Assembly: GCF_947259345.1 (NCBI RefSeq)
Contig: NZ_CAMYLS010000031.1
Location: forward strand, 1 to 33,286
Length of the DNA stretch: 33,286 nt
Source: an uncultured Maricaulis sp.
Lineage (GTDB): Bacteria; Pseudomonadota; Alphaproteobacteria; Caulobacterales; Maricaulaceae
Reading direction: 5' to 3'
Shown here: in pieces, positions 3,200-16,034 of the stretch
How positions within the stretch are numbered: the first letter of the stretch is position 1
Layout: the number at the start of each line of letters is the position of its first letter
The notes under the pieces: model-generated
The model's input: only the letters and a program-made list of their open reading frames with translations
Databases searched by the model: none
Told to the model about the DNA's origin: nothing
Made by a program: the position numbers and the translations under genes

Positions 3200-6100
3200 A
3201 TGAGAGACGAAGACTTCAAATCGCGCATCCTGCGATCCACGATCCTGGCCGGCCTCACGGCCGCGGGTCTGGCGATTTCACCGGCCTACGCCCAGCAACC
3301 CGTGACGCTCGACGACGCCGAAGAGGAGACGGACGAAACCGAAGATCGCATCGTCGTCACCGGCTCACGCGTGCGCCGCGACAGCTTCACCTCGACCTCA
3401 CCGCTGCAGGTGATCAGTGAGGAGACCATCCAGGAAGCGGGCCTGGTTGATGTTGGCGAGATCCTGCGCTCGACCTCCGTGGTCCAGGGCGCCCAGCTCG
3501 ACCTTCAGACCAACTCGCAATTCGTCAGCAATGCCGGACCGGGGGGCCAGGCTGTGTCCCTGCGCGGCCTCGCCGCCGACCGCACGCTGGTCCTCATCAA
3601 TGGCCGCCGTTTCGCACCGGCCGGTGTGGAAGGCGCCCCGTCCTTCCCCGACGTGTCCCTGATCCCGTCTTCGATAATCCAGCGGGTCGACATTCTTCTG
3701 GATGGCGCATCGTCGGTCTACGGCTCCGACGCCGTTGCGGGCGTGACCAATATCGTTCTGCGCACCGAATTTGATGGCCTCCAGGTGGAAGGCTTCACGA
3801 CTGTGCCGGAAGACAGCGGTGGCTCCCAGTCGAGCGCAAACTTCCTGGTGGGCGGCAGCGAAGGGCGCCTCAACTTCGTGTTCGCGGCAGAAGTGGTTCG
3901 CAGTGAAGAACTGACCGGATCCCAACGCGACTGGATGGGACGCGACGGCCAGTTCTGCTCGATCGACATTATCGATAATGGCGACGGCACGACGTCCGAA
4001 GTCTGCGGTACCGGCCACACATCACAGTCAGGCCTCGGAATTACGCTTCCCAACCGCATCATCTATTATGGTGCCCCGGGCGTGACAGCCGCGGATTCCG
4101 ATCTGGGCATTGCCGGTTTCGTGAATGGTCGCGGTCCCAACGCCGGCGCCTTCACCGATCAGTTCGCGAACAATCAGCGCGTCGCGGATGCCTACGAAAT
4201 TCCCGAGTTCGAGCGTTCGGTCTTCTTCCTCTACGCGGACTATGATTTGAGCGACTGGATCGCCGGGACGAATTTCTTCACCGAGACGTCCTTCTCCAAC
4301 CGCCAGACCTTCTTCAACGGCGGCCCGACCCAGTTCACGGTCGACTATGACACCACCAACCCGTTCAACCCCTTCCCGGGCCAGAGCGGCTCGGTGCTCC
4401 TGATGTCCCCATGGGACCTCGTGGCTTCGGTCGAGCTGGAGCAGTGGCGGACCTATAACGGCCTGCAGGGAGATCTCGGCTTCATTGGCGCACCGGATTG
4501 GGATTATGAAGTCTTCGCCGGTTACACGCGCTCGATGGGATACTCCTCTCGGACCATCACACTGGAAGAAAACCTGAACCTGTCAGCCAGTGCGACGACC
4601 GATCCGACGACCGGCCTGCCGGTTTGTGGCATCCCGACGCCCGACGGCTTCTTCCAGTCGCGCACGCCGGAAACCTGCGTACCGATCAACTTCTTTGCGG
4701 AAAGCCTCTTCGGTACCGATCCCAGCTTCGCCGAGGGCGACGCCGCCACGGATTGGCTGCGCGGCCAACGCGAGATCACGACCTTTGTCGACGAGCGCAT
4801 CCTCGGCGGCTTTGTCACCGGCCCGCTCTTCGAATTACTCGATGGCGACGTGTCGGTCGTGCTCGGTACGGAATGGCGCGAGCAATCACTCGATTCGCGC
4901 TCCGGCGAAGTTGCCGCGCGCGGCCTGGGACTGAATTTCTTCAAGGACCGCTCATCTGCCGGCTCCGTGGAGTTGTTCGAGGTCTACGGCGAAGTTGTGG
5001 CGCCCATTATCCAGGACCGCCCGCTGGCCCGTGAAGTGACCTTCGAAGCCGCTGCGCGACTCGTAGATCACGAATTCTACGGCCAGAACTCCACTTGGAG
5101 CACACGCATGCGCTGGGTTCCGGTCGACTTCCTGACCCTGCGTGCCACAGCCGGCACCTCCTTCCGCGCACCAAACCTGCGGGAGCTCTTTCTGGGTGGC
5201 CAGTCCGGCTTCGTGAACTTCTCGAATGACCCGTGCGGCGTGCCGGCGACTGCTGTTGCGGCAGACCCGGTCACGGGCGATCCGATCTACGCGCCCGGTG
5301 CCGATACCAATGGCGACGGGATTGGTGATCTGGACGGCCGTCCGCAAATTGTCCTCGACAATTGTCGGGCCGAGGGCGTTGATCCGCTGACGCTCGGTGT
5401 CACCGGCACATCGGGCTTCGAAGCGTTCCGGGCCGGCAATCCGGGTCTTGACCCTGAGACGTCTGAAGCCATCTCGATCGGCTTTGTCCTGGAGCAACCC
5501 TTCACCGACGCCTTCGACCTGACCTTCGGCGTCAACTATTTCGAGATCGAAGTGTCGGACTCGATCCTGGTTCCCAGCGCGGGCCAGATCCTGTCGAATT
5601 GCTATCGTTCAGCCAATTTCCCGGCGGACCCATTCTGTACGCGCAGGGTTCGGGATCCGAACACGCTGTATCTCAACGAGGTGGACACGACACCGTTCAA
5701 CGTGTCGTCCAACACGTCCGAGGGCCTGGACTATAATGCCCGCTTCCACGCGGACTTCACGGCGTTTGGGCGTAACTATGCCTTCACGTCCAACGCGGCA
5801 CTGACCCAGTCCACCGACATCACGACGACCATCACCTTGGCCGGTGTGACCAATGTCAACGAAGCCCTGAACACCTTGGGCAACCCGGAATGGCGCGGGA
5901 CTTTCTCCAACCGTCTCTTCACGTCGACGAGTTGGGGTGACCTCAGCATCTTCCACCGCGCCCGCTGGATCGGCGAAGTCAATGTGACCGAGAATCCGGC
6001 CTTCACCGGCACGGGCATCTCGGCTCAGTTTGATGTCCCGTCGGCTCAGTATCATGACATCTCCGTGTCACTCACGCAGGAAGACTGGCGTGTGACGATG

Positions 6101-6262
6101 GGCGTGCAGAACGTGGCCAATGAAGCGCCGCCCCAGATCGATGAGGACCTGGCGACCCAGGGCGTCAGCTTGGGCAGCCTGTCGACCCGCAGCGTGCCGT
6201 CCGGCGGCGGGTATGACCAGATTGGTCGCCGCTTCTTCATCAATGTGTCGAAGCGCTTCTAG
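3200..6262 (+). CDS. TonB-dependent outer-membrane receptor
   Basis: A 1020-residue receptor for TonB/ExbBD-driven uptake across the outer membrane. It has a signal peptide with likely cleavage after AYA at residue 31, then an acidic linker and a TonB-box-like DRIVVTGSR around residues 50-58. The plug follows at roughly 60-190, with PLQVISEETI, SLRGLAADRTLVLINGRR and DGASSVYGSDAVAGVTNIV. The rest is a large beta-barrel ending in FFINVSKRF with the expected terminal phenylalanine. The length and plug resemble the Caulobacter/Sphingomonas-type receptors used for large substrates such as oligosaccharides or peptides; the actual substrate is unknown. The ATG follows a good GAGGGG site and the gene is closed by a terminator at 6286. 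Confidence 0.95.
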   Translation: MRDEDFKSRILRSTILAGLTAAGLAISPAYAQQPVTLDDAEEETDETEDRIVVTGSRVRRDSFTSTSPLQVISEETIQEAGLVDVGEILRSTSVVQGAQLDLQTNSQFVSNAGPGGQAVSLRGLAADRTLVLINGRRFAPAGVEGAPSFPDVSLIPSSIIQRVDILLDGASSVYGSDAVAGVTNIVLRTEFDGLQVEGFTTVPEDSGGSQSSANFLVGGSEGRLNFVFAAEVVRSEELTGSQRDWMGRDGQFCSIDIIDNGDGTTSEVCGTGHTSQSGLGITLPNRIIYYGAPGVTAADSDLGIAGFVNGRGPNAGAFTDQFANNQRVADAYEIPEFERSVFFLYADYDLSDWIAGTNFFTETSFSNRQTFFNGGPTQFTVDYDTTNPFNPFPGQSGSVLLMSPWDLVASVELEQWRTYNGLQGDLGFIGAPDWDYEVFAGYTRSMGYSSRTITLEENLNLSASATTDPTTGLPVCGIPTPDGFFQSRTPETCVPINFFAESLFGTDPSFAEGDAATDWLRGQREITTFVDERILGGFVTGPLFELLDGDVSVVLGTEWREQSLDSRSGEVAARGLGLNFFKDRSSAGSVELFEVYGEVVAPIIQDRPLAREVTFEAAARLVDHEFYGQNSTWSTRMRWVPVDFLTLRATAGTSFRAPNLRELFLGGQSGFVNFSNDPCGVPATAVAADPVTGDPIYAPGADTNGDGIGDLDGRPQIVLDNCRAEGVDPLTLGVTGTSGFEAFRAGNPGLDPETSEAISIGFVLEQPFTDAFDLTFGVNYFEIEVSDSILVPSAGQILSNCYRSANFPADPFCTRRVRDPNTLYLNEVDTTPFNVSSNTSEGLDYNARFHADFTAFGRNYAFTSNAALTQSTDITTTITLAGVTNVNEALNTLGNPEWRGTFSNRLFTSTSWGDLSIFHRARWIGEVNVTENPAFTGTGISAQFDVPSAQYHDISVSLTQEDWRVTMGVQNVANEAPPQIDEDLATQGVSLGSLSTRSVPSGGGYDQIGRRFFINVSKRF

Positions 6263-6285: not shown

Positions 6286-6315
6286 ACGGCCCGTGCCCCA
6301 GGCACGGGCCGTTTT
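6286..6315 (+). terminator. Rho-independent terminator after the receptor gene
   Basis: ACGGCCCGTGCC at 6286-6297 pairs perfectly with 6301-6312 across a 3-base loop, followed by TTTT at 6312-6315. It lies 24 bases past the receptor stop and separates it from the convergent ABC transporter gene. Confidence 0.9.
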
Positions 6316-8141
6316 CATGTCCGGTAGGCGTCGGCTTGCAATTCGAACATCGCTGCGTAACTGCCACCCTGCGCCATCAGCGACTCATGGTCGCCGGCTT
6401 CGGCGACCTGGCCCGCTTCCAGCAGGATGATCTGGTCCGCCGAGCGCAGATTGGACAGGCGATGGCTGATCAGGATGAGCGAGCGACCGGGCGCAAGCGG
6501 GCGCGCCATGAAGGCGGCTTCCGCTTCTGCATCCAGTGCCGCCGTCGGCTCATCAAGAATCAGAATGTCCGCGGCCTCATTGGCGTGCGCGCGGGCCATG
6601 GCCAGGCGTTGCCATTGACCACCCGACAGCTCGACGCCTTCCGCGAAGCGCTTGGAGAGCCGTGTATCAATCCCGGCGGGCAGGTCCGAGACGAGGTCCT
6701 GCGCCAGGCCGGCGGCCAGGGCGCGGTCCATGGCATCCGGCGAAAGCGTCTCCAGGCCGAGGCCCGCCTCGACATTGTCACGCACCGAGAGCTTGTAGTT
6801 CACATGAGGCTGGAACATCACGCCGATGCGGTTCGCCAGCGCCGCTGGCTCCCATTCGCCCAGATCCAGCCCGTCCAGCAGGACACGGCCCGTATCCGGC
6901 CGGTAGAGCCCGGCCGCCAGCTTCACGAGCGTCGTCTTGCCCGACCCGTTAATCCCGACCAGGCCGAGACGGGTGCCGGGCGGCAAATGAAAACTGACAT
7001 CGCGCAAGGCCGGTGAAGGTGCGCCGGGATAGACAAAGCCGACCTGTTCAAAACGAAGCCCGTCTCCCGGTATCGGGCCGACGATCTGCCGACCCTGCGT
7101 GCGCCCCTCTTCAAGGTCCAGCAGGGCGAAGAGGCGCGTGACATAGAGCACATCCTCATAGCTGCCCGTGAAAGCCCCCAACAGGCCGTTGACGGCATTC
7201 TGCCCCTGTTTGAGCAAACCGATCAGCATGGTCATCTGACCGAGGCTGAAACGGCCGGCAATGGTCACGGCGACGATCCAAACCTTGCCGCCAAGGAAGA
7301 TGGCCGAACCCAATACTCCGAGCGCGGATCCGATGATGGCCTGGCGCCCTTGCAGCCGGCGGTCCCCGGCGTGCATGCCGTCGAACAAGTCGGTGAAACG
7401 CTCCATGAGCGGCTTGCCGAGCCCGTAATGCAGCCGCTCACGCGCCGCGGCCTCGTTGGTCACCAGGCTTTCCAGGTAATTGCGCTCGCGCATTTGCGGC
7501 GAACGCGCCGTGTAAAAGCGATAGGCATCGCCGGAGAACCGCAGATTGCCGATGAAGGCGGGCAGCCCCGCCACCAGCATCACGGCGATCAACCAGGGCG
7601 CGCTCGCCGCCAGAAGGGCCGTAATGGAGATCAGGGTGACCAATGCCTGGAGTGTGTCGAAGCCACGCATGATAAGGCCATAGGGTCGCGCTGCGGCAAA
7701 CTGTTTGGCGTGAATGAGCATTTCCTGGACCCGCGGCAACTCGATCTTCGCCAGCGAAAACCGGTTGGCCTTGTCGAGGATAAGTCGCGCGACCGCGAAG
7801 CCGAGCTCGGCATGAAGCCGGGCTTTCTGGAAGGCCAGCCATCGCCGGATGATCAGAAGGACCGCCAGGATGATGGCTTCAATGACCACCCAGCGCATGG
7901 CAGCCGCCCTGTCGGCCTCCAGGCCGCTCTCGATCGCCGCCAAAACACCGTCAATGAGGAGTTTCGAGACATAGAGCGCCGCCGGCGGCAATAGTGCCGC
8001 GATCACGGTCAGAACAGCGATGCCTGTGGTCAGACCCGGTCTCGTCCGCCCGATAATGGCCAGTGTGCGCACAGCCGCCGAAATCCGTTCCTGCCAGGAC
8101 GGAACCGGCTCACCTTGGCTGTCCGTATCAGACGCGGGCAT
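6315..8141 (-). CDS. ABC exporter half-transporter (membrane domain fused to ATPase)
   Basis: A 608-residue type IV ABC exporter subunit, expected to act as a homodimer in the inner membrane. Hydrophobic helices lie at about 37-58, 84-99, 160-180, 182-198 and 268-295. The ATPase follows: Walker A GINGSGKTT at 396-404, Q-loop Q444, signature LSGGQWQRLAMAR at 505-517, Walker B ILILDEPTAALD at 526-537 and switch histidine H560. All catalytic motifs are intact. The best comparison is the MsbA/multidrug/lipid exporter group. It is the last gene of a minus-strand operon: its ATG is six bases after the stop of the fusion sulfotransferase and has only a weak binding site, suggesting translational coupling. 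By context it could export a sulfated glycan or lipid; the cargo is unproven. Confidence 0.93.
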   Translation of the reverse strand: MPASDTDSQGEPVPSWQERISAAVRTLAIIGRTRPGLTTGIAVLTVIAALLPPAALYVSKLLIDGVLAAIESGLEADRAAAMRWVVIEAIILAVLLIIRRWLAFQKARLHAELGFAVARLILDKANRFSLAKIELPRVQEMLIHAKQFAAARPYGLIMRGFDTLQALVTLISITALLAASAPWLIAVMLVAGLPAFIGNLRFSGDAYRFYTARSPQMRERNYLESLVTNEAAARERLHYGLGKPLMERFTDLFDGMHAGDRRLQGRQAIIGSALGVLGSAIFLGGKVWIVAVTIAGRFSLGQMTMLIGLLKQGQNAVNGLLGAFTGSYEDVLYVTRLFALLDLEEGRTQGRQIVGPIPGDGLRFEQVGFVYPGAPSPALRDVSFHLPPGTRLGLVGINGSGKTTLVKLAAGLYRPDTGRVLLDGLDLGEWEPAALANRIGVMFQPHVNYKLSVRDNVEAGLGLETLSPDAMDRALAAGLAQDLVSDLPAGIDTRLSKRFAEGVELSGGQWQRLAMARAHANEAADILILDEPTAALDAEAEAAFMARPLAPGRSLILISHRLSNLRSADQIILLEAGQVAEAGDHESLMAQGGSYAAMFELQADAYRT

Positions 8142-8147
8142 GGCGGG

Positions 8148-9578
8148 TCAGGCGACTCTCGCCTTCCGGGCCTGGGCTTCCTCCGCCATCTTGCGCGACA
8201 GGACGGCGCCTTTGTGCGGAAACGCTTCGGCGGGGATCGGGCGATCGAGGAAGGGGCCGAGTTTCTCGAATCCCTCACCCGAGCAAATGTCGATGACCAG
8301 CAGGTCCTCCGGTCGGTCCTTGAAGTAAGTCATCACATCACGGACATGCTGGTCGTAGACCCAGGAGAAGCGGTCCGGACAGTAGTTATAGCAACCATAG
8401 ACCGCGGCCCGCAGGAACTGGCGCATGCGCAGATGCACTTCCTCATCGGGATCCTCGACATCCTTGAAGGCCGGGCGATTGTAGTAGTGCCGCGACACCG
8501 AGCCGAGCCAACTTTCCTTGTCCCGTACGGTCAGAATAAATTTCGAACCCGGATACTGCTTGTCGAGCTGCTGATAGATCGGAATGGTGGTGATGTCGGT
8601 CAGGCCATCATAATAGCGCAGCAGAGTGAGGTCGTATTGAGCATTGGCGATCTCGATATAGGTGTCTTCGTCAATCGGATAATGGCTGCAATCGAAACCG
8701 AGCATTTGTAGTCCGGATGTCAGGCTGCGCGTGCCGGTACGCGACAGACCCAAACCGAAGACCTTGGGCTTGTCAGCCTTTCGGCCATAGGCGACACGGT
8801 CCGCATTCGCGGACAGCCAGGCGTCGAGATCGGCCCGCGTGAAGGGCGTTTCCGAGCTCATTCCCAGCGCCTTGAGTTCCGCTTCCGCATGCTCCGGCAG
8901 AGCGGCGATGAAGTCGTGAACTTCATCGGGCGTCGCCGAAAGCGGGACGAGGCGGCGCGCATATTCAACCGCGTGTCGGGCCATGCTGAGGTCGCAGACA
9001 TTGCCGTCCGCCGTGACCCATTTCTTCATCGAGCGTGTCAGGCGTTCGCGCTGCACCTTGGTGCGGCTGCGAAGCTCGCGAAGCGCGTATTTCATGAAGA
9101 TGTGGTGATAGGACTGGAAGTGGTCGTGCAGGATATCGAAATTGCGGAATTGTTTGGCCGACCCCATGGGCTTCATGGCCAGATTGCGCAGGCGCGACTC
9201 CGGTCGCAGCACATATTTCATGTCGTCGTCCGGCACATCGACCGCCGCCATGGCCCGCACCAGATCGATCCGGGTGATGTGAACCCCGCAATGCAGACGC
9301 CCGCGGAACCGGTCTGACACGTAGGAGTCGACATAGGGCGCATCGCAGCTGTCGATGAAAGGCCGCATGTTTTCAAGGATCAGACAGTCGGCATCGACAT
9401 AAACGACATAATCGCAATCATGCTCGATCCGTAGCATCTGCGAGACGCATTCGGTGAAGGGTCGCACATTATCGATCACATGCACCGCGTCCGGCTGAAT
9501 GTTCTCGATGGCCAGCTCCAGCGCGACATCGCGAGTGCGTTCATCAATCTGGCGGAAAACCAGGTCTACTTTCGCCAT
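8148..9578 (-). CDS. Fusion of glycosyltransferase-like and sulfotransferase domains
   Basis: A 476-residue two-domain protein. Residues 1 to about 115 look like a GT-A-type glycosyltransferase fragment: an N-terminal VDLVFRQIDERT strand, a DXD motif in YVVYVDADCLILENMRPF (D62 and D64) and GRLHCGVHITRID. Residues from about 270 form a PAPS-dependent sulfotransferase: the 5'-phosphosulfate loop FGLGLSRTGTRSL at 274-286, the 3'-phosphate-binding stretch KFILTVRDKESWLGS at 346-360, and LLVIDICSGEGFEKLGPFLD near 426-445. A middle alpha-helical segment joins them. I chose the ATG at 9578 because it lies two bases after the upstream stop with GGGGGG just before it; a GTG at 9593 is possible. The acceptor is unknown, probably a glycan or lipid. 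The GT part is short and may be incomplete as an enzyme. Confidence 0.85.
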   Translation of the reverse strand: MAKVDLVFRQIDERTRDVALELAIENIQPDAVHVIDNVRPFTECVSQMLRIEHDCDYVVYVDADCLILENMRPFIDSCDAPYVDSYVSDRFRGRLHCGVHITRIDLVRAMAAVDVPDDDMKYVLRPESRLRNLAMKPMGSAKQFRNFDILHDHFQSYHHIFMKYALRELRSRTKVQRERLTRSMKKWVTADGNVCDLSMARHAVEYARRLVPLSATPDEVHDFIAALPEHAEAELKALGMSSETPFTRADLDAWLSANADRVAYGRKADKPKVFGLGLSRTGTRSLTSGLQMLGFDCSHYPIDEDTYIEIANAQYDLTLLRYYDGLTDITTIPIYQQLDKQYPGSKFILTVRDKESWLGSVSRHYYNRPAFKDVEDPDEEVHLRMRQFLRAAVYGCYNYCPDRFSWVYDQHVRDVMTYFKDRPEDLLVIDICSGEGFEKLGPFLDRPIPAEAFPHKGAVLSRKMAEEAQARKARVA

Positions 9579-9580
9579 CC

Positions 9581-10423
9581 TTATTCCCCCCACTGAAACG
9601 GCGCATTGGCCGTCGCAGCCATCTGCTCGAACAGGGCGAGGTGTTCGGGCTTCATTTCCGTCTTCCAGCGCAAATCGAGCTCGATCCGGCCAGAGTGATT
9701 TTCGTAGTAATCCCGCGTTCGTGAACCGAGGCTGACAAAGGCTTCGTCAGGATCGTCGAAACGCGAACGCGCGGCGATGAACTGGGTTCCGCTGTTTCCC
9801 CCGAGAACATGGTGCTCGACAGCGGCGAAATTCGCCATGCCCGCCTGATAGTCGACGCCGATCAGTCGGCACAGGACCTCGATCGTCGTGGCACTATTCT
9901 CAGCGAGGTCTTCATACCGGACGCGCATCTTCGGGCCTTCAAAGGCCTCGAACAAGGCGTCGGCGGCGGCCATCTTGTCGACCCAGGCCTGGATTTGCCC
10001 AACCGGATCACGATCCGGGTATTTGCGCAGGCGGGAATTGACAACGGCGCGGCCATCGCGGCTCAGCATCAAAAGCACCGGCGTTCCGCCACTTGAGCGG
10101 ACCTCGGCGGCCCGCGCCTCGATCCAGCCTTCATCCTTGGTCGAGTCGATAATGACCGGCTTGCCCACATGCGCCGCCACCTGGGCGTAAAGCGGTGTCT
10201 CTCCATCCCATTCAAAGCCCGCCCAGACCGGGCAGTCCTCGCCGCAAATCTTGCAGACACGCTTGCGCAGGGGCTTCTTCTCGTCACCGAGATAACGCGC
10301 CTTGCCGCCTTCGCCCATGTAGAATGCGTCTGAATGGCTGCCGAGGATCATCCCCAGCAAGGTCGAACCGGAATGACCGGCTCCACACATCATGACGGCC
10401 GTCAGCCGTGATCCGTCATACAT
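9581..10423 (-). CDS. PAPS-dependent sulfotransferase family protein
   Basis: A 280-residue sulfotransferase that would move sulfate from PAPS to an unknown acceptor. The 5'-phosphosulfate loop is GAGHSGSTLL at 14-23, near the N-terminus as usual. LSRDGRAVVNSRL at 120-132 is the 3'-phosphate site, and VIIDSTKDEGWI and RVRYEDLAE are further family signatures. Three cysteines, CKIC-x3-CPVW (C57, C60, C64), sit in a loop that is often present in this bacterial family and may bind metal or form a disulfide. It is the first gene of the operon; the ATG has a GGGA about five bases upstream. It is soluble with no signal peptide. The substrate cannot be inferred beyond the partner genes. Confidence 0.88.
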   Translation of the reverse strand: MYDGSRLTAVMMCGAGHSGSTLLGMILGSHSDAFYMGEGGKARYLGDEKKPLRKRVCKICGEDCPVWAGFEWDGETPLYAQVAAHVGKPVIIDSTKDEGWIEARAAEVRSSGGTPVLLMLSRDGRAVVNSRLRKYPDRDPVGQIQAWVDKMAAADALFEAFEGPKMRVRYEDLAENSATTIEVLCRLIGVDYQAGMANFAAVEHHVLGGNSGTQFIAARSRFDDPDEAFVSLGSRTRDYYENHSGRIELDLRWKTEMKPEHLALFEQMAATANAPFQWGE

Positions 10424-10621
10424 TCTGTCCCGCTGCCTCTAAAAGGTCCCCCGTGGATACTTCTTCGCGATTGCAGGACGGTAGACAAGCGAAAAAGCGC
10501 GGACACCACGCGGAAGGCAGCGCCTGCACACTGACTTTGCACGCTGGTGTCATCGTGCCGCATGTTGGTGCAAACTGCGCAGGTTATAAGAGAGGCCTGC
10601 TATGCTTTCGGGGAATGCCGC

Positions 10622-11164
10622 ATGAAACCAGTCCTTCTTGTCCTTCTGCCTGCGTTCGCGCTCGCTGCTTGTGGCGGCGATGAAGCCGCTTCGCCCGCCA
10701 GCCGGACCGAGACCGGCGACTCAACCAGCGCCGCGCCAGCCCCAGCAGACACGGCAGGCCCAATCGATACGGCAAGCAATGAGCAAGGCGCCGAAACGGG
10801 TCCCGACGCCAATGCCGTTCTGGCCAGTCTTGGCGGGGATTATGCGAATGCCGATCTCGCCAACGGAGCGCGCCAGTTCCGGCGTTGCCAGTCCTGCCAT
10901 ACGCTTGCCGAGGGCGGTCGCCACACGGTGGGGCCAAATCTGCATGGTGTGGTTGGGCGCGCAGCCGCCAGCGCCGACCGCTTCAACTTTTCGAGCCAGC
11001 TCAGCGAGTCCGGTTTGACCTGGGACCTGGCGACGCTGGATGCCTGGGTCGAGAATCCGCGGGCGCTGGTGCCTGGCAATCGCATGAGTTTCGTCGGCCT
11101 GCGCGATGCCGAGGACCGGCGCGATGTCATTGCCTATCTCGCCGTGGAAACCGCCACCGAGTAA
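10622..11164 (+). CDS. Lipoprotein class I cytochrome c
   Basis: A 180-residue c-type cytochrome on the periplasmic side of a membrane. The start at 10622 is preceded by GGGGAA and gives a lipoprotein signal ending LAAC with C17 as the lipidated residue. An unstructured Ala/Thr/Pro/Glu-rich linker follows to about residue 65. The haem domain has CQSCH (C89, C92, H93), VGPNLHGVVGR after it, and M155 in GNRMSFVGL as the likely axial ligand, close to mitochondrial-type cytochromes c. It probably shuttles electrons to a terminal oxidase or reductase, but no partner gene is nearby. An in-frame upstream start at 10547 would spoil the signal peptide and is rejected. Confidence 0.9.
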   Translation: MKPVLLVLLPAFALAACGGDEAASPASRTETGDSTSAAPAPADTAGPIDTASNEQGAETGPDANAVLASLGGDYANADLANGARQFRRCQSCHTLAEGGRHTVGPNLHGVVGRAAASADRFNFSSQLSESGLTWDLATLDAWVENPRALVPGNRMSFVGLRDAEDRRDVIAYLAVETATE

Positions 11165-11178
11165 GCAGGTGTCCCTGG

Positions 11179-11961
11179 TCAAAAGCGCCGCCAGACCGAC
11201 AGAAAAACAGCCTCCTGGTCGATGGCATTGCGACCGACAGGTGTGATTGACGCGCCGATCTGGACGGTCTGGCGACCGAAATCCCGACCGACCGAGACCT
11301 GAAGCTTATGCTGTTCGAAGTCGGGCGCGCCCGGCCGGGCCGGCTCTGCGCTCCAGACCGAGAAGCTCTGGGCCAGAACCTGCCAGCGCTCGGAAACCCG
11401 CCAGCCAGCCGTCAGGTCGAGTCGGGCTTCGTCCAGATAGTTTCCATCGCGCCAGCGCCACGCCGCCTGGGTCTCGAGAAAGCCGCGCTCGCCTATACTG
11501 CGCCCCACCAGGGCGCGGACTTCCGCTGCCATCTCGCCCGTCCCGAAGGCCTGGTTGGAGACATTCTCGCCCTGGCCGGGAATCAGGGCTGTCAGTTGCA
11601 CCGAGACGACTGCCCGCCTCTCATGCCAGACCTCGCGGCGCCAGCCGATCTCGCTCGCTGACAAACCCTGGGCCGCGTCGAAGGAGGGTCCCCGCAAGCG
11701 GCGAACATCCTGCCAGGCCAAGCGGGCAACCAGCGTGTCCCGGCCCGTCACCCCGTATTCGAGATAGGCCGCGGTTTCATCCTTGTGGAAATAGCCGTCA
11801 TCAACCGTCTGACCGGTAGCATCGAAACTGGTTTCGGCCCGATCAATCAGCGTGGTGAGAATCAAGAGCCCTTCACCGCGCTCCTGCGGCCAGGCCCCGG
11901 CCTGGGCCGGTGCCGAGAGACCAGGTCCCGCCGCACCGGCCAGACAGGCCGCGACTGTCAG
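11179..11961 (-). CDS. Predicted outer-membrane beta-barrel protein, start uncertain
   Basis: I do not recognise the family. The mature part has alternating hydrophobic and polar strands, many aromatic residues at strand ends (GYFHKDETAAYLEYG, TLVARLAWQDV, QVLAQSFSVWS) and a C-terminal VFLSVWRRF typical of barrel proteins recognised by the BAM complex. A signal-like segment LTVAACLAGAAGPGLSAPAQA leads in. There is no ATG, GTG or TTG close to it: the nearest in-frame candidate is CTG at 11961, overlapping the aldolase stop as CTGA, and the next is an ATG at 12090 deep inside the aldolase gene. I give the CTG version (260 residues). It is the last gene of the EgtB-aldolase unit and converges on the cytochrome gene with 14 bases between. 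Confidence 0.6.
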   Translation of the reverse strand: MTVAACLAGAAGPGLSAPAQAGAWPQERGEGLLILTTLIDRAETSFDATGQTVDDGYFHKDETAAYLEYGVTGRDTLVARLAWQDVRRLRGPSFDAAQGLSASEIGWRREVWHERRAVVSVQLTALIPGQGENVSNQAFGTGEMAAEVRALVGRSIGERGFLETQAAWRWRDGNYLDEARLDLTAGWRVSERWQVLAQSFSVWSAEPARPGAPDFEQHKLQVSVGRDFGRQTVQIGASITPVGRNAIDQEAVFLSVWRRF

Positions 11962-12725
11962 GTATCGAAGCCGGGGCTTTCGCGGCGGACGCGATCCAGA
12001 ACAGCGGCCCAGGCAATTTCCTTGAAGAACTCGTTCGACGAGATCTCCCCGGATTGCCCGAAGACGCGGTCCTGCATCTTCTCGTCCCATTCGATCAGCT
12101 CTCCACCGGCCTGGGCCATGACCTGAATCTTGCAGGCACGCTCCAGTAGATAGATACGAACATACGCGCTAAACGGGTGATCGCCAACCGACAACGTCCC
12201 GTGGTTGCGCAGGATCATGAGATTCTTCTCACCCAGATCCGCGACCAGACGCTCTTTTTCCTCGGATTCCAGCGCGATGCCTTCATAGTCGTGATAGCTC
12301 ACATCATTGAAGACATTCATCGCCAGTTGCGAGATTGGACGCAGGCCACCCTTTTGGGCCGCGACCGCGACGCCGGCATCGGAATGCAGGTGCAGCGCAA
12401 CAGCGACATCCGGGCGCGCATGGTGGATCGCCGAGTGAATGACAAAGCCGGCCGGATTGATTCCATATTGCGAGGGCGGCAGGACATTCCCGTCCAGATC
12501 GACCTTTACCAGATTGGACGCGGTGACATCCTCGTAAAGCAGGCCGAACGGATTGAGCAGAAAGTGCTCGTCCGGTCCCGGCACGCGCATGGAAATGTGG
12601 GTGAAGAAAAGGTCGTCCCAGCCGTGCATGCGCACGAGCCGATAGAGCGCCGCCAGGTCACAACGCGCCTTCCATTCCTCGGCCGAGACCTGGTCCTTGA
12701 CCGAGAGGTTTGCCTGATCATCCAT
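11958..12725 (-). CDS. Class II aldolase/adducin-family protein
   Basis: A 255-residue zinc-dependent aldolase-fold protein of the fuculose-phosphate aldolase/ribulose-phosphate epimerase/adducin superfamily. The fold signatures are LAALYRLVRMHGWDDLFFTHISMRVP near 25-49, LLNPFGLLYEDVTASNLVKVD, the metal site HLHSD (H112, H114) and RNHGTLSVG (H175). The ATG at 12725 has GGGGAGAA six bases upstream; longer N-terminal extensions lack similarity to the family. It lies 68 bases downstream of the EgtB-like gene on the same strand, so co-transcription is likely. The substrate is not readable; close relatives are usually annotated only as class II aldolase/adducin proteins. Confidence 0.88.
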   Translation of the reverse strand: MDDQANLSVKDQVSAEEWKARCDLAALYRLVRMHGWDDLFFTHISMRVPGPDEHFLLNPFGLLYEDVTASNLVKVDLDGNVLPPSQYGINPAGFVIHSAIHHARPDVAVALHLHSDAGVAVAAQKGGLRPISQLAMNVFNDVSYHDYEGIALESEEKERLVADLGEKNLMILRNHGTLSVGDHPFSAYVRIYLLERACKIQVMAQAGGELIEWDEKMQDRVFGQSGEISSNEFFKEIAWAAVLDRVRRESPGFDT

Positions 12726-12793
12726 GATGTTCTCCCCATGGCTTGTATCTTTATCGCCAACAGCGTTCAGGATCGTGCCTGTTGCCCTCCCCG

Positions 12794-14074
12794 TCAAACA
12801 TCCCGTGCCAGGCGAACCCCGGAAAACTGCCATCGGGCCTCCGGCGGGAAGAAATTCCGATAGGTCGGACGAATATGATCCGGCGCCGTGGCACAGGAAC
12901 CGCCGCGCAGAACAAACTGGCCACACATGAATTTGCCATTGTATTCCCCCACTGCGCCGGCCGCGGGACGATAGCGCGGGTAAGGTGAATAGGCGGACCG
13001 CGTCCATTCCCAGGCATCACCGAACATCTGCCGCAACCCGCCTGCTCCCGCCTGCACCTCCGGCGTTACACCCGGATGCGCCGACCGGCCCGGCTCGGCA
13101 AACCGCCCGTCGCGCGTGCGAGATACCGTCATCGCCGCGTGCTCCCACTCGCGTTCATCAGGCAGCCGCGCACCGCTCCACTCCGCGAAGGCACTGGCCT
13201 CGTAATAACTCAAATGGATGACCGGTGCGTCGGGCTCGAGAGGGTATTGCCCGTGCAGCGTGAATTCCTCCCAGCCGGTTTCTCCCTCGCGCCAGTAGAG
13301 CGGCGCGCGCCATCCCTCGGCCAGCACGCGGGCCCAGCCATCGGACAGCCAGAGCGCCGCCGTGTCATACCCGCCATCGGCGATGAAAGCCGCGTAGTCG
13401 CGATTGGTCGCCAGTCGGTCAGCAAGGGCGAAAGGCGTGAGAATGGTCTGATGGCGCGGCCCCTCATTGTCAAAATGGAAGCCCTCCTCGCGCGCTCCGA
13501 TCTCGACCACACCGCCGTCAAAACCGACCCAGCCGGGTGCTCCCGCCCGGGTTCCGGCGCCGGATGTCGGTGCCGGAAAGGCCGCCGGCGCGAAGGGGTG
13601 GCGCGACAGAACATGCTTGATATCGGTCAGGATCAGCTCCTGATGCTGCTCCTCATGCGCCAGGCCCAGCTGAATGAGTGGTGCCAGGGCCGCATTTTCG
13701 ATGTCTTGGTCAATACTGAGTAAACGCGTCATCGCCGCGTCGACATGCGCGCGGTAAGACAGCACGTCTTCATGTGGTGGGCGGCTGAGGAAGCCACGCT
13801 CCGGCCGAGCGTGACGATCCCCGATCCCGTCATAATACGAATTGAACAGATAATTGTATTCGCTTGAGAATTCCACATAGCCCGGAAGGTGCTCCCGCAG
13901 CAGGAAGGTCTCCCAGAACCAGGTCGTGTGGGCCAGATGCCACTTTGTTGGGCTGACATCGGCCATGGTCTGGACCAGCATGTCCTCGGCACTCAACCCG
14001 GCGACCAGTGATTGCGTACGATCCCGGACACCCGAATAGAGTGATGACAATGATACCGGTCGCATGTCTTCCAT
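12794..14074 (-). CDS. egtB: EgtB-like iron-dependent sulfoxide synthase
   Basis: A 426-residue protein with an N-terminal DinB-like helical domain and a C-terminal formylglycine-generating-enzyme fold, the layout of EgtB. EgtB joins trimethylhistidine (hercynine) to a cysteine thiol with oxygen in ergothioneine synthesis. The three-histidine iron site is visible: H49 in WHLAHTTWFWE, and H140 and H144 in HEEQHQE. FGE-type signatures are GARLPDEREWEHAAM, MFGDAWEWTRSAYSPYP and FVLRGGSCATAPDHIRPTYRNFF. The ATG follows GGGGAG. The usual partner egtD, a histidine methyltransferase, is not adjacent; an aldolase gene follows instead. An ovothiol-type (OvoA-like) role is less likely because there is no fused methyltransferase. 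Confidence 0.87.
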   Translation of the reverse strand: MEDMRPVSLSSLYSGVRDRTQSLVAGLSAEDMLVQTMADVSPTKWHLAHTTWFWETFLLREHLPGYVEFSSEYNYLFNSYYDGIGDRHARPERGFLSRPPHEDVLSYRAHVDAAMTRLLSIDQDIENAALAPLIQLGLAHEEQHQELILTDIKHVLSRHPFAPAAFPAPTSGAGTRAGAPGWVGFDGGVVEIGAREEGFHFDNEGPRHQTILTPFALADRLATNRDYAAFIADGGYDTAALWLSDGWARVLAEGWRAPLYWREGETGWEEFTLHGQYPLEPDAPVIHLSYYEASAFAEWSGARLPDEREWEHAAMTVSRTRDGRFAEPGRSAHPGVTPEVQAGAGGLRQMFGDAWEWTRSAYSPYPRYRPAAGAVGEYNGKFMCGQFVLRGGSCATAPDHIRPTYRNFFPPEARWQFSGVRLARDV

Positions 14075-14104
14075 GCTTGTAACTCCCCGTGTCGACAGCC
14101 CGAA

Positions 14105-14119
14105 TTAAGAAGTTTTCAA
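14105..14119. promoter_or_regulatory. CtrA-like box upstream of the first DUF2336 gene
   Basis: TTAA-N7-TCAA lies 53 bases before the ATG at 14172. It matches the Caulobacter CtrA consensus TTAA-N7-TTAA at seven of eight positions. Sites with one mismatch occur by chance about once per window of this size, so this alone is weak. Confidence 0.4.
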
Positions 14120-14171
14120 GGCGTTCCTGCCATCGATAAAGGTCAATACAACCGATCGCAAATCAAGAACC

Positions 14172-15230
14172 ATGGCCGCAAAACCCGCCGACGCCCTCCA
14201 TCTGCTCGCGACCGTACGCGACCCCGACAAACGCCAGCAGCTTGCGCTGAGCGTGACCGAGATGTGTGTCGCCCAGCCGCTTTCCCCGTCGGCTGAGCCA
14301 ATTGCCGGCGATCTGCTGATCACCCTGTCGACCAAGTCCGATCTCGACACCAAGGTGGCGATGGCCAAGAAGCTCGCCAGTTGCGACTGGGCCCCCCACT
14401 CCGCGGTCCGCCATTTCGCCTTTGACGAGATCGAGATCTCGGCGATCATTATCGAGAAAAGCGACAAGCTGACCCAGAAGGACATGATCGAGCTGGCCGA
14501 GACGGGCTCGATCGAGCACCGTCGCCATCTGGCCATGCGCGCCAATCTCTGCCTGCCGGTCACAGACCGGCTGGCCCAGCCGGGCGAACCAATCGTTCTG
14601 CGCGCACTGGCGAATAATGACACGGCCGAGATCTCCGAGGACACGCTGGAAGTTTGCCTGCATGTCGCGCGCGAGCACCCCAAGCTGCGCGAAGCCCTCG
14701 CCCGTCGCCACGACCTGTCGACGGACTACGCCACACAGCTCTGCATCATGCTGCCCGAAAACTGGCGCGAGGAATTGTACCGCCGCTTCGGCCTCGACAA
14801 GGCCAAGGTCGAGACCCTCGCGGTTGAAGCGGCGCTGGGCGCGACGCCGGAGGACGTCGACAAGGCGGCGGCGCGCGAAGTCCAGGACGCCAAGACCGCC
14901 GGCAAGTTGTCCGGCCGGTTCGCCATGGACGCACTGAAAGCGGGCAAGGAAGCGGTATTTGACCATGCGATTGCCGCCCTGTGCGAGATCAAGGCGTCGC
15001 AATGGCGCGTTGCCCTCGCAATGAGCGGCGTGCGCGCGGCCGCGATGGCCTGCCAGGCCGCACAATTGGATCGGACAGCTTACCCGATCATCCACAAGAC
15101 GCTGCAGCGCTCCGGCCGCATTCACCAGGCCCTCGAGGGCGACGCGATGGCGGCGGCCGCAAATGTCTTCCGCATGTATGGTCCGGAAAAAGCGGCGAAG
15201 GTCTTGCGCCAGATGGGCACGAGGGCTTGA
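14172..15230 (+). CDS. DUF2336-family protein
   Basis: A 352-residue, largely alpha-helical soluble protein of the DUF2336 type, a HEAT-like family common in Caulobacterales and related alphaproteobacteria and without a settled function. Visible hallmarks are LLITLSTKSDLDTKVAMAKK, repeated short helices with PHSAVRHFAFDEIEIS, and VLRALANNDTAEISEDTLEV. No catalytic motif, signal peptide or membrane helix is seen. The ATG has only a weak binding site (CAAGAA). Downstream come NAD kinase, a receiver protein and an Hpt protein on the same strand, and a second DUF2336 gene faces this group at 17159. The context hints at a signalling role, but this is inference. Confidence 0.8.
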   Translation: MAAKPADALHLLATVRDPDKRQQLALSVTEMCVAQPLSPSAEPIAGDLLITLSTKSDLDTKVAMAKKLASCDWAPHSAVRHFAFDEIEISAIIIEKSDKLTQKDMIELAETGSIEHRRHLAMRANLCLPVTDRLAQPGEPIVLRALANNDTAEISEDTLEVCLHVAREHPKLREALARRHDLSTDYATQLCIMLPENWREELYRRFGLDKAKVETLAVEAALGATPEDVDKAAAREVQDAKTAGKLSGRFAMDALKAGKEAVFDHAIAALCEIKASQWRVALAMSGVRAAAMACQAAQLDRTAYPIIHKTLQRSGRIHQALEGDAMAAAANVFRMYGPEKAAKVLRQMGTRA

Positions 15231-15232
15231 AT

Positions 15233-15256
15233 AAGAACCTGTTTCATCAGGTTTTC
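15233..15256 (+). other. Hairpin between DUF2336 and NAD kinase genes
   Basis: AACCTG at 15236-15241 pairs with CAGGTT at 15248-15253 across a 6-base loop, extendable by one wobble and one A-T pair, and is followed by a pyrimidine-rich TTCCTTC. It lies 14-17 bases before the presumed NAD kinase start. It may attenuate transcription or hide the initiation region; it is too weak for a sure terminator. Confidence 0.35.
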
Positions 15257-15269
15257 CTTCGAGCCCGCC

Positions 15270-16034
15270 ATCACCGCTTCCCTCGCCTTCCTTGCCAGCC
15301 CCCGTCCTGAGGCCAAGGCCGCCAAGTCGCGCCTTGAACAGGTCTATGGTTATGTTCCGATCGATGAGGCGGAAATCATCGTCGCCCTGGGCGGTGACGG
15401 GCTGATGCTCGACGCCCTGCACCTGTCCATCAAGACGGGCGCGCGGGTTTACGGCATGAATTTCGGCTCGGTCGGATTCCTCATGAATGAATTCCGCGAG
15501 GACGGCCTCACCGAACGCCTCGCCAGGGCCGAGCGCGCCCGCATTCATCCGCTGCGCGCCTTCGGCGAGGACATTCACTGCAAACCCTTCGAAGCGCTCG
15601 CGATCAACGAAGTCTCCCTTTTGCGGGAGACTCGGCAGACGGCGAAAATCAAGATCACGATCGACGGCACAAGCCGGATGTCCGAATTGCAGGCCGACGG
15701 GGTCCTTGTCGCGACACCGGCTGGCTCCACCGCTTATAATCTCTCGGCCCATGGCCCGATCCTGCCGCTTGATTCCACCGTGCTGGCCCTGACACCGATC
15801 AGCGCCTTTCGCCCCCGCCGCTGGCGCGGCGCGCTTCTGCCGCGCAATGCCCGGGTCGGCTTCGAGATCGTTGAACCGTCCCTGCGGCCGGTCTCGGCGG
15901 TGGCCGATAATCAGGAATTCCGTGAAGTGGCCCGCGTCGATGTGGTAGAAGCGCATGACGTGACCCTGACCATGCTGTTCGACCCGGGCCGGGATCTGGC
16001 GGAACGCATACTGGTCGAACAGTTCGAAAACTGA
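15270..16034 (+). CDS. nadK: NAD kinase, with no conventional start codon
   Basis: This enzyme makes NADP+ from NAD+ and ATP or polyphosphate. The catalytic GGDG is at 41-44 ([12 protein letters not shown]), the NE motif at 113-114 (AINEVSLLR), and [22 protein letters not shown] at about 142-162 is the conserved nucleotide site. Family comparison says the protein begins at [10 protein letters not shown], about 40 residues before GGDG. Between the preceding gene's stop (TGA, 15228-15230, same frame) and the ATG at 15405 there is no ATG, GTG or TTG in frame; that ATG lies just after GGDG and would delete the active site. The best candidate is ATC at 15270, giving 254 residues, the usual length. 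ATA at 15231 or ATC at 15246 are alternatives, and a sequence error is possible. Confidence 0.85.

Follow-up and report, generated by a model that had tools for sequence, protein, structure and literature searches.

A conserved three-gene cassette of Maricaulis with a possible role in making and exporting a sulfated glycoside

Genes and domains of the cassette

We analyzed a 33,286-nucleotide (nt) stretch of DNA from an uncultured Maricaulis sp. (contig NZ_CAMYLS010000031.1; this whole stretch is hereafter called the window) and examined three adjoining genes within it. These genes encode a sulfotransferase (sulfotransferase A), a fusion of a glycosyltransferase (GT)-like domain with a second sulfotransferase domain, and a single-chain ATP-binding cassette (ABC) exporter (Table 1). 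We refer to the three genes together as the cassette. A previous reading of the letters alone (the sequence-only reading) had described three genes on one strand, 2 and 6 nt apart, and the reading frames and Pfam matches confirmed this observation. The named relatives of the cassette are in agreement with a position close to Maricaulis, as that reading had suggested. We placed the start of the fusion at the ATG at 9578; the listed frame starts at a GTG at 9593, and relatives were aligned from the matching methionine. Gene order and near-touching spacing were kept in relatives with readable frames. With start codons chosen by script and locus L012 excluded, the gap between genes 1 and 2 was −4 to 7 nt (15 nt in L091, which has split frames) and that between genes 2 and 3 was 0 to 33 nt. 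The ratio of nonsynonymous to synonymous substitutions (dN/dS) of the cassette genes was 0.04–0.12 compared to three relatives, which indicates purifying selection. The low dN/dS, together with the kept order and spacing, suggests that the three frames are real and not due to chance.

Table 1. Positions of the cassette genes, their domains and the gaps between them in the window
Feature	Position	Strand	Remarks
Sulfotransferase A, gene 1	9581..10423	-	280 amino acids; Sulfotransfer_3
Fusion protein, gene 2: GT-A-like and Sulfotransfer_4 domains	8148..9578	-	476 amino acids
ABC exporter, gene 3: membrane half and ATPase, single chain	6315..8141	-	608 amino acids; PF00005
GT-A-like domain of the fusion, residues 1-257	8808..9578	-	structure model
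DAD, DxD-type motif of the GT-like domain, residues 62-64	9387..9395	-	invariant in 27/27 loci
Sulfotransfer_4 (PF17784) domain of the fusion, residues 272-456	8211..8765	-	Pfam, 113.6 bits
Gap between genes 1 and 2, 2 nt	9579..9580	-	
Gap between genes 2 and 3, 6 nt	8142..8147	-	

Sulfotransferase A matched the Pfam family Sulfotransfer_3 (PF13469; 37.5 bits, above the cut-off of 27), had no NCBIfam match and gave no PDB sequence match at E ≤ 1. It carries the motif CGAGHSGSTLL at residue 13, the motif RDGRAVVNS and a cysteine cluster, CKICGEDCPVW. We take CGAGHSGSTLL to be the 5′ phosphosulfate loop and RDGRAVVNS to be the 3′-phosphate motif (Arg…Ser). Invariant in 27 of 27 loci were GAGHSGSTLL, the three cysteines and, within RDGRAVVNS, the R, D, N and S. 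The C-terminal domain of the fusion matched Sulfotransfer_4 over positions 1–209 of the 215 in the profile (cut-off, 22.8 bits; score in Table 1); NCBIfam matched the fusion at chance level only. Its loop LGLSRTGTRSL was near-invariant across the 27 loci, with small changes, and R352 and S360 were invariant. Sulfate transfer by this domain, dependent on 3′-phosphoadenosine-5′-phosphosulfate (PAPS), is predicted.

The PDB relatives of the fused sulfotransferase domain include SgdX2, which we take to be an unusual member. Its presence among them would suit an alternative in which the sulfotransferase domains no longer sulfate, serving instead another group transfer, an elimination or a structural role, with the exporter acting as a self-protection pump. 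However, PAPS-type motifs are kept in both enzymes, and we consider this alternative very improbable. Neither enzyme had a membrane-like stretch in a simple hydropathy scan (maxima of 1.31 and 1.01; membrane limit set at 1.4), which makes a cytosolic location probable for the two of them.

The first ~260 residues of the fusion matched no Pfam model. A Pfam search with 16 members at E ≤ 10, whose filters drop most weak matches, brought up no glycosyltransferase family. When the N-terminal profile was compared with PDB sequences, we obtained ten chance-level ribosomal matches and one GT (6mw5, E = 0.96, in the DxD region). A model of the domain had a predicted local distance difference test score (pLDDT) of 78 and a predicted template modeling score (pTM) of 0.77, and GT-A structures topped its PDB fold list (Foldseek). 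Among viral structure models, the nearest included four at E ≤ 0.001, and many further rows were named glycosyltransferases. The DAD motif (D62, A63 and D64) lies at the end of model strand 57–62; we assume for it the metal and donor role of a DxD motif. The structure model gives the N-terminal domain a GT-A-like fold. A model of the whole fusion was discarded (pLDDT 48.8); its fold list pointed to glycosyltransferases, none at E ≤ 0.001. The alignments used for the two models had 11 and 15 rows.

The exporter matched ABC_tran (PF00005) with 98.3 bits (cut-off, 25), and it keeps Walker A, the LSGGQWQR signature and Walker B with small changes across the 27 loci. Its hydrophobic regions span residues 33–70, 77–107, 160–203 and 267–307; each of the latter pair has room for two helices. 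No Pfam model scored above its cut-off in this membrane half, PF00664 included, and none of the 25 best NCBIfam matches of the exporter reached its cut-off. Defence-system profiles gave four matches only, all in the ATPase half, and phage profiles yielded a single weak match, of unknown function.

Conservation of the cassette as one unit

We searched 137 genomes of the family for the three genes. At E ≤ 1e-10, 34 genomes matched the alignment, five of them by the sulfotransferase part only, which leaves the fusion in 29; in the other 108 of the 137 no fusion was found. The exporter was found in 28 genomes (E ≤ 1e-90, nine best candidates scored per genome) and sulfotransferase A in 28 (E ≤ 1e-30), in every case within the 29 and adjacent to the fusion. 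The exporter exception, G064, has a frame that enters a masked stretch after 178 matching residues; in the sulfotransferase A exception, G074, the contig ends and the fusion starts at base 45. Both the fusion and the exporter of G071 (L091) are split into two frames. Family exporters of at least 47% identity always occurred with the fusion, and the GT domain was never found without its sulfotransferase partner in this search. Conservation of the neighborhood in relatives had been proposed as a test by the sequence-only reading, and the neighborhood is kept. That reading would have been weakened by an exporter whose close relatives all occur without sulfotransferases; we observed that 28 of 28 at E ≤ 1e-90 adjoin the fusion. 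The two sulfotransferases, the GT-like domain and the exporter form one conserved set, and the GT-like domain now has fold evidence.

A collection of named genomes, which overlaps the family genomes so that the counts are not additive, held 12 loci. All three genes were present in the same order at 11, ten of them intact and one (L012) with broken frames; the twelfth, from Colwellia, has a Sulfotransfer_4 relative only. Upon all-versus-all clustering of frames from 33 loci, the three groups with the most loci were those of the cassette genes (28, 25 and 24). The remaining cassette genes had been lost to shadow frames or to cut or broken genes, and tblastn recovered them. The next group (13 loci) consisted of antisense frames, as judged by reading, and the next real neighbor gene reached 11 loci. 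No fourth gene recurred beside the cassette in all genera of these 33 loci. Protein distances of the three genes were correlated pairwise (r = 0.89, 0.89 and 0.91; 27 loci), a result to which shared ancestry alone contributes.

Within the genus, the fusion was present in 15 of 19 genomes. Three of the four genomes without it matched a flanking gene, and the fourth is 69% complete. These three cassette-free genomes keep the upstream neighbors (window 10622–15956), four of five in one and all five in two, and show no detectable trace of any cassette gene. Because the neighbors are kept while all three genes are absent, the sequences indicate that these genes are acquired or lost together, as a single block. 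In a record labeled as a Henriciella metagenome-assembled genome (MAG; L005), the whole cassette branches within Maricaulis in all three protein trees, and its flanks differ. This placement may reflect horizontal transfer or a mislabeled MAG.

We profiled the flanks by Pfam using seven window proteins and four from two other cassette loci. The window neighbors include a TonB receptor, a cytochrome c, a LytTR protein, a class II aldolase, a DinB/FGE-sulfatase-domain protein and two proteins without a Pfam match. Neighbors on the cytochrome c side are common to most Maricaulis loci; they are not shared by the other genera or by L078 and L079 of the same genus. In Glycocaulis (L011) the cassette adjoins trigger factor, ClpX and an alcohol-dehydrogenase-type gene, and at L084 a Peptidase S58 gene lies near it. 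In several Maricaulis loci, the protein with DinB_2 and FGE-sulfatase domains (12794–14074) is encoded close to the cassette; this domain architecture is found in ergothioneine-type sulfoxide synthases.

Two noncoding features border the cassette. A GC-rich palindrome with four terminal T (6288–6318) lies between the exporter stop codon and the convergent TonB-receptor gene (3200–6262, + strand). It was spotted by eye and is perhaps a terminator, which the terminator scan did not list. The site scan found one promoter-like site (0.8 expected) and five terminator-like sites (3.4 expected). Between gene 1 and the divergent cytochrome c gene, a block of ~25 nt (10546–10570) is near-identical in six loci (the window, L002, L003, L004, L075 and L076), where much of the surrounding DNA differs. 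Because it contains no conserved frame, the block is perhaps a regulatory site.

Sulfate supply, exporter relatives and the proposed product

The sequence-only reading had suggested a search for PAPS-synthesis genes near the cassette. None was found there; the sole match of the genome to the adenosine 5′-phosphosulfate (APS)-kinase family is on contig C5, so PAPS for the cassette must come from elsewhere. Members of the APS-kinase family occur in 120 of the 137 genomes of the bacterial family and in 11 of the 14 controls, so widely that their presence is uninformative on the cassette. The make-and-export route for a sulfated glycan or lipid proposed by that reading is supported in part: its genes hold together as a unit, its PAPS supply does not lie nearby, and a surface glycan or lipid is a predicted product.

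The C5 match sits in a CysNC-type gene adjoining a CysD-type gene (PF01507). We observed a separate sulfation/glycan-like region on this contig, outside the window (G000:C5:258000-294596; L146 and L147). By eye, it contains GT-like genes and genes resembling GDP-mannose dehydratase/fucose synthase; a profile search confirmed two Sulfotransfer_3 genes in it. Genome-wide, there were 13 Sulfotransfer_3 matches, the cassette's included and one frame counted twice.

This region, with its CysD- and CysNC-type genes and two further sulfotransferases, would fit an alternative in which the cassette modifies a surface polysaccharide or lipopolysaccharide made elsewhere. The GT would add a side-branch sugar, sulfation would follow, and the ABC protein would flip a lipid-linked unit. 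Distant ABC relatives point the same way: one in G352 adjoins a DegT/DnrJ/EryC1 gene, and one in Bernardetia lies near a DegT/DnrJ/EryC1-type gene set that includes UDP-glucuronate decarboxylase. Within a polysaccharide cluster of Roseobacter litoralis, a Sulfotransfer_4 gene comes 18 nt after an ABC gene, although that ABC protein aligns with the exporter in its ATPase half only. Two sulfotransferases can occur within one cluster for a sulfated polysaccharide, as the example of synechan illustrates (PMC8205485). However, the genes surrounding the cassette differ between the genera read and seem unrelated, and the flanks, as far as they were profiled, show no recurrent gene for a polymerase or for outer-membrane export. 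We regard a role in polysaccharide modification as unlikely.

Outside the family, full-length exporter relatives were mostly without an adjoining sulfotransferase, as far as their neighborhoods were read. Among 289 genomes of the class (four best candidates scored per genome), relatives of 32–39% identity occurred in nine genomes besides the window's own at E ≤ 1e-75. The stretches fetched around these nine contained no relative of the cassette sulfotransferases at E ≤ 0.01, a test that misses unrelated sulfotransferases; the neighbors were read in part, and one stretch (L122) is 3,954 bases. On plasmids, exporter relatives were found in 32 records (E ≤ 1e-60). Two of the seven neighborhoods inspected were Streptomyces class I lanthipeptide clusters with a sulfotransferase, and five, that of Bernardetia among them, were not. 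The association is lost beyond close relatives and the distant ones lie in mixed neighborhoods; judging by these sequences, the transporter class therefore does not decide between a lipid, a glycan and a peptide.

A ribosomal peptide or another specialized metabolite, encoded elsewhere, could be decorated by the sulfotransferases and the GT and exported, with the ABC protein as a LanT-like exporter. The exporter aligned over 593 residues at 35% identity with that of the S. goshikiensis lanthipeptide cluster, which bears a sulfotransferase, and a second such cluster was seen. Likewise, an exporter relative of 32% identity (L121, G151:C6) adjoins asparagine-synthetase-like, 185-amino-acid protease-like and PqqD-like proteins, by eye a lasso-peptide-like set. 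Patchy presence (29 of 137 genomes) would also suit an accessory metabolite. In contrast, the five plasmid neighborhoods without a lanthipeptide cluster argue against a peptide, and the sulfotransferase of S. goshikiensis falls into a different Pfam family (PF00685) and barely aligns with those of the cassette. Moreover, we found no convincing conserved small frame within 1.5 kilobases on either side (29 loci), which leaves room for a more distant precursor. This search clustered 982 frames of 20–130 amino acids from 29 of 33 loci, and up to four members were viewed in each of the 14 largest clusters. We consider the peptide alternative quite unlikely.

Judging by the members viewed, the largest small-frame clusters look like antisense or shifted frames of flanking genes. 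One candidate directly upstream (six loci, 5′ of gene 1) was rejected as a peptide: the DNA is kept there and the frame is not, with 30, 53, 112 and 40 amino acids in four loci and no frame in L076.

We favor a self-contained cassette for sulfo-glycosylation and export, which would combine GT-A sugar transfer, sulfations and ABC export, and we hold this reading tentatively, at just short of an even chance. In the cytosol, the GT-A domain of the fusion would use a nucleotide-sugar to add one sugar to a small acceptor already made by the cell. This acceptor would most likely be a membrane lipid or a lipid carrier. The fused Sulfotransfer_4 domain would place sulfate from PAPS onto the glycosylated product, and the Sulfotransfer_3 enzyme would add a second sulfate or sulfate the acceptor first. 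A homodimeric ABC exporter would then carry the sulfated product across the inner membrane. Our favored product, at about even odds, is a sulfated glycolipid or lipid-linked glycoside derived from an ordinary constituent of the cell; polysaccharide decoration and a peptide or specialized metabolite are serious competitors. We favor a small product over a long polysaccharide because the cassette has one GT domain, two sulfotransferases and a one-piece exporter, no other gene recurs beside it in all genera, and its surroundings contain no convincing conserved small frame. What is directly supported is the order and tight spacing of the genes, their strict co-occurrence, the conservation of catalytic motifs and the GT-A-like fold of the orphan domain.

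Several points weigh against sulfo-glycosylation and export. A sulfotransferase fold alone is no proof of sulfation, and all that is said here of chemistry, acceptor, homodimer formation, transport direction and surface location is predicted from sequence. The GT-domain model had no PDB match at Foldseek E ≤ 0.001, the TM-scores of its PDB matches were only ~0.25–0.42 by query length among the matches listed, and its VIA list mixed glycosyltransferases with same-fold nucleotidyltransferases. The best NCBIfam match of the exporter, the MsbA equivalog, reached 212.3 bits against a cut-off of 602. Its full-length relatives include lanthipeptide-cluster exporters, which leans towards peptides. Finally, with its numerous further Sulfotransfer_3 matches and its glycan-like region elsewhere, the genome may have its main sulfation route outside the cassette.

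A bolder form of the favored reading, which we think rather doubtful, is a minimal, mobile-looking three-gene system that would make and secrete a doubly sulfated glycoside, either a lipid or a small signal or antibiotic, as a new class of sulfated product. Its basis would be a GT-A domain found exclusively in fusion with a sulfotransferase and nearly exclusively within this bacterial family.

Comparison with known systems

We found no description of the cassette in the literature, as judged by titles and the starts of abstracts, and the parts of two papers available to us held nothing on sulfated products of Maricaulis (PMC3368421, PMC7179689). As of 2021, according to passages of a study on synechan, sulfated polysaccharide had been reported in no bacteria but cyanobacteria despite many registered sulfotransferases, and known sulfated bacterial molecules include rhizobial Nod factors and mycobacterial molecules (PMC8205485). 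Few sulfated bacterial products are understood. The make-attach-export route of the cassette, carried by marine Maricaulis and some relatives, seems undescribed. Its presence in some strains and clean absence from others of one genus suits a direct genetic test; among the loci with the cassette, L003 is from the culturable laboratory strain M. maris DSM 4734.

The class I lanthipeptide clusters of S. globosus (L124) and S. goshikiensis (L127), like the cassette, have a sulfotransferase and a homologous full-length ABC exporter in an operon-like run. Unlike the cassette, they have precursor, LanB and LanC genes, and no GT–sulfotransferase fusion is annotated in them. On both plasmids the sulfotransferase gene directly follows the lanthipeptide precursor, and it is possible that these clusters make sulfated lanthipeptides. 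In Xanthomonas, RaxST and RaxB likewise bring a sulfotransferase and an ABC exporter to bear on one product, a tyrosine-sulfated peptide. They differ from the cassette in their peptide substrate, in a peptidase-type exporter with an adaptor, and in having no GT domain.

The Roseobacter litoralis plasmid pRLO149_63 (L131) resembles the cassette in that its ABC exporter gene adjoins the Sulfotransfer_4 gene, with glycosyltransferases close by. It differs in that the sulfotransferase is unfused and part of a polysaccharide cluster, and in the limited similarity of the ABC protein described above. The lipid A flippase MsbA is a single-chain ABC exporter like that of the cassette, which scores far below the equivalog cut-off. 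The synechan xss cluster of Synechocystis shares with the cassette the combination of two sulfotransferases, glycosyltransferases and export in one set (PMC8205485). Unlike the cassette, it is a large Wzx/Wzy cluster with eight GT genes, and the passages available to us describe neither a GT–sulfotransferase fusion nor a single-chain ABC exporter (PMC8205485). Through the fusion in the cassette, a single protein would link sugar transfer to sulfation.

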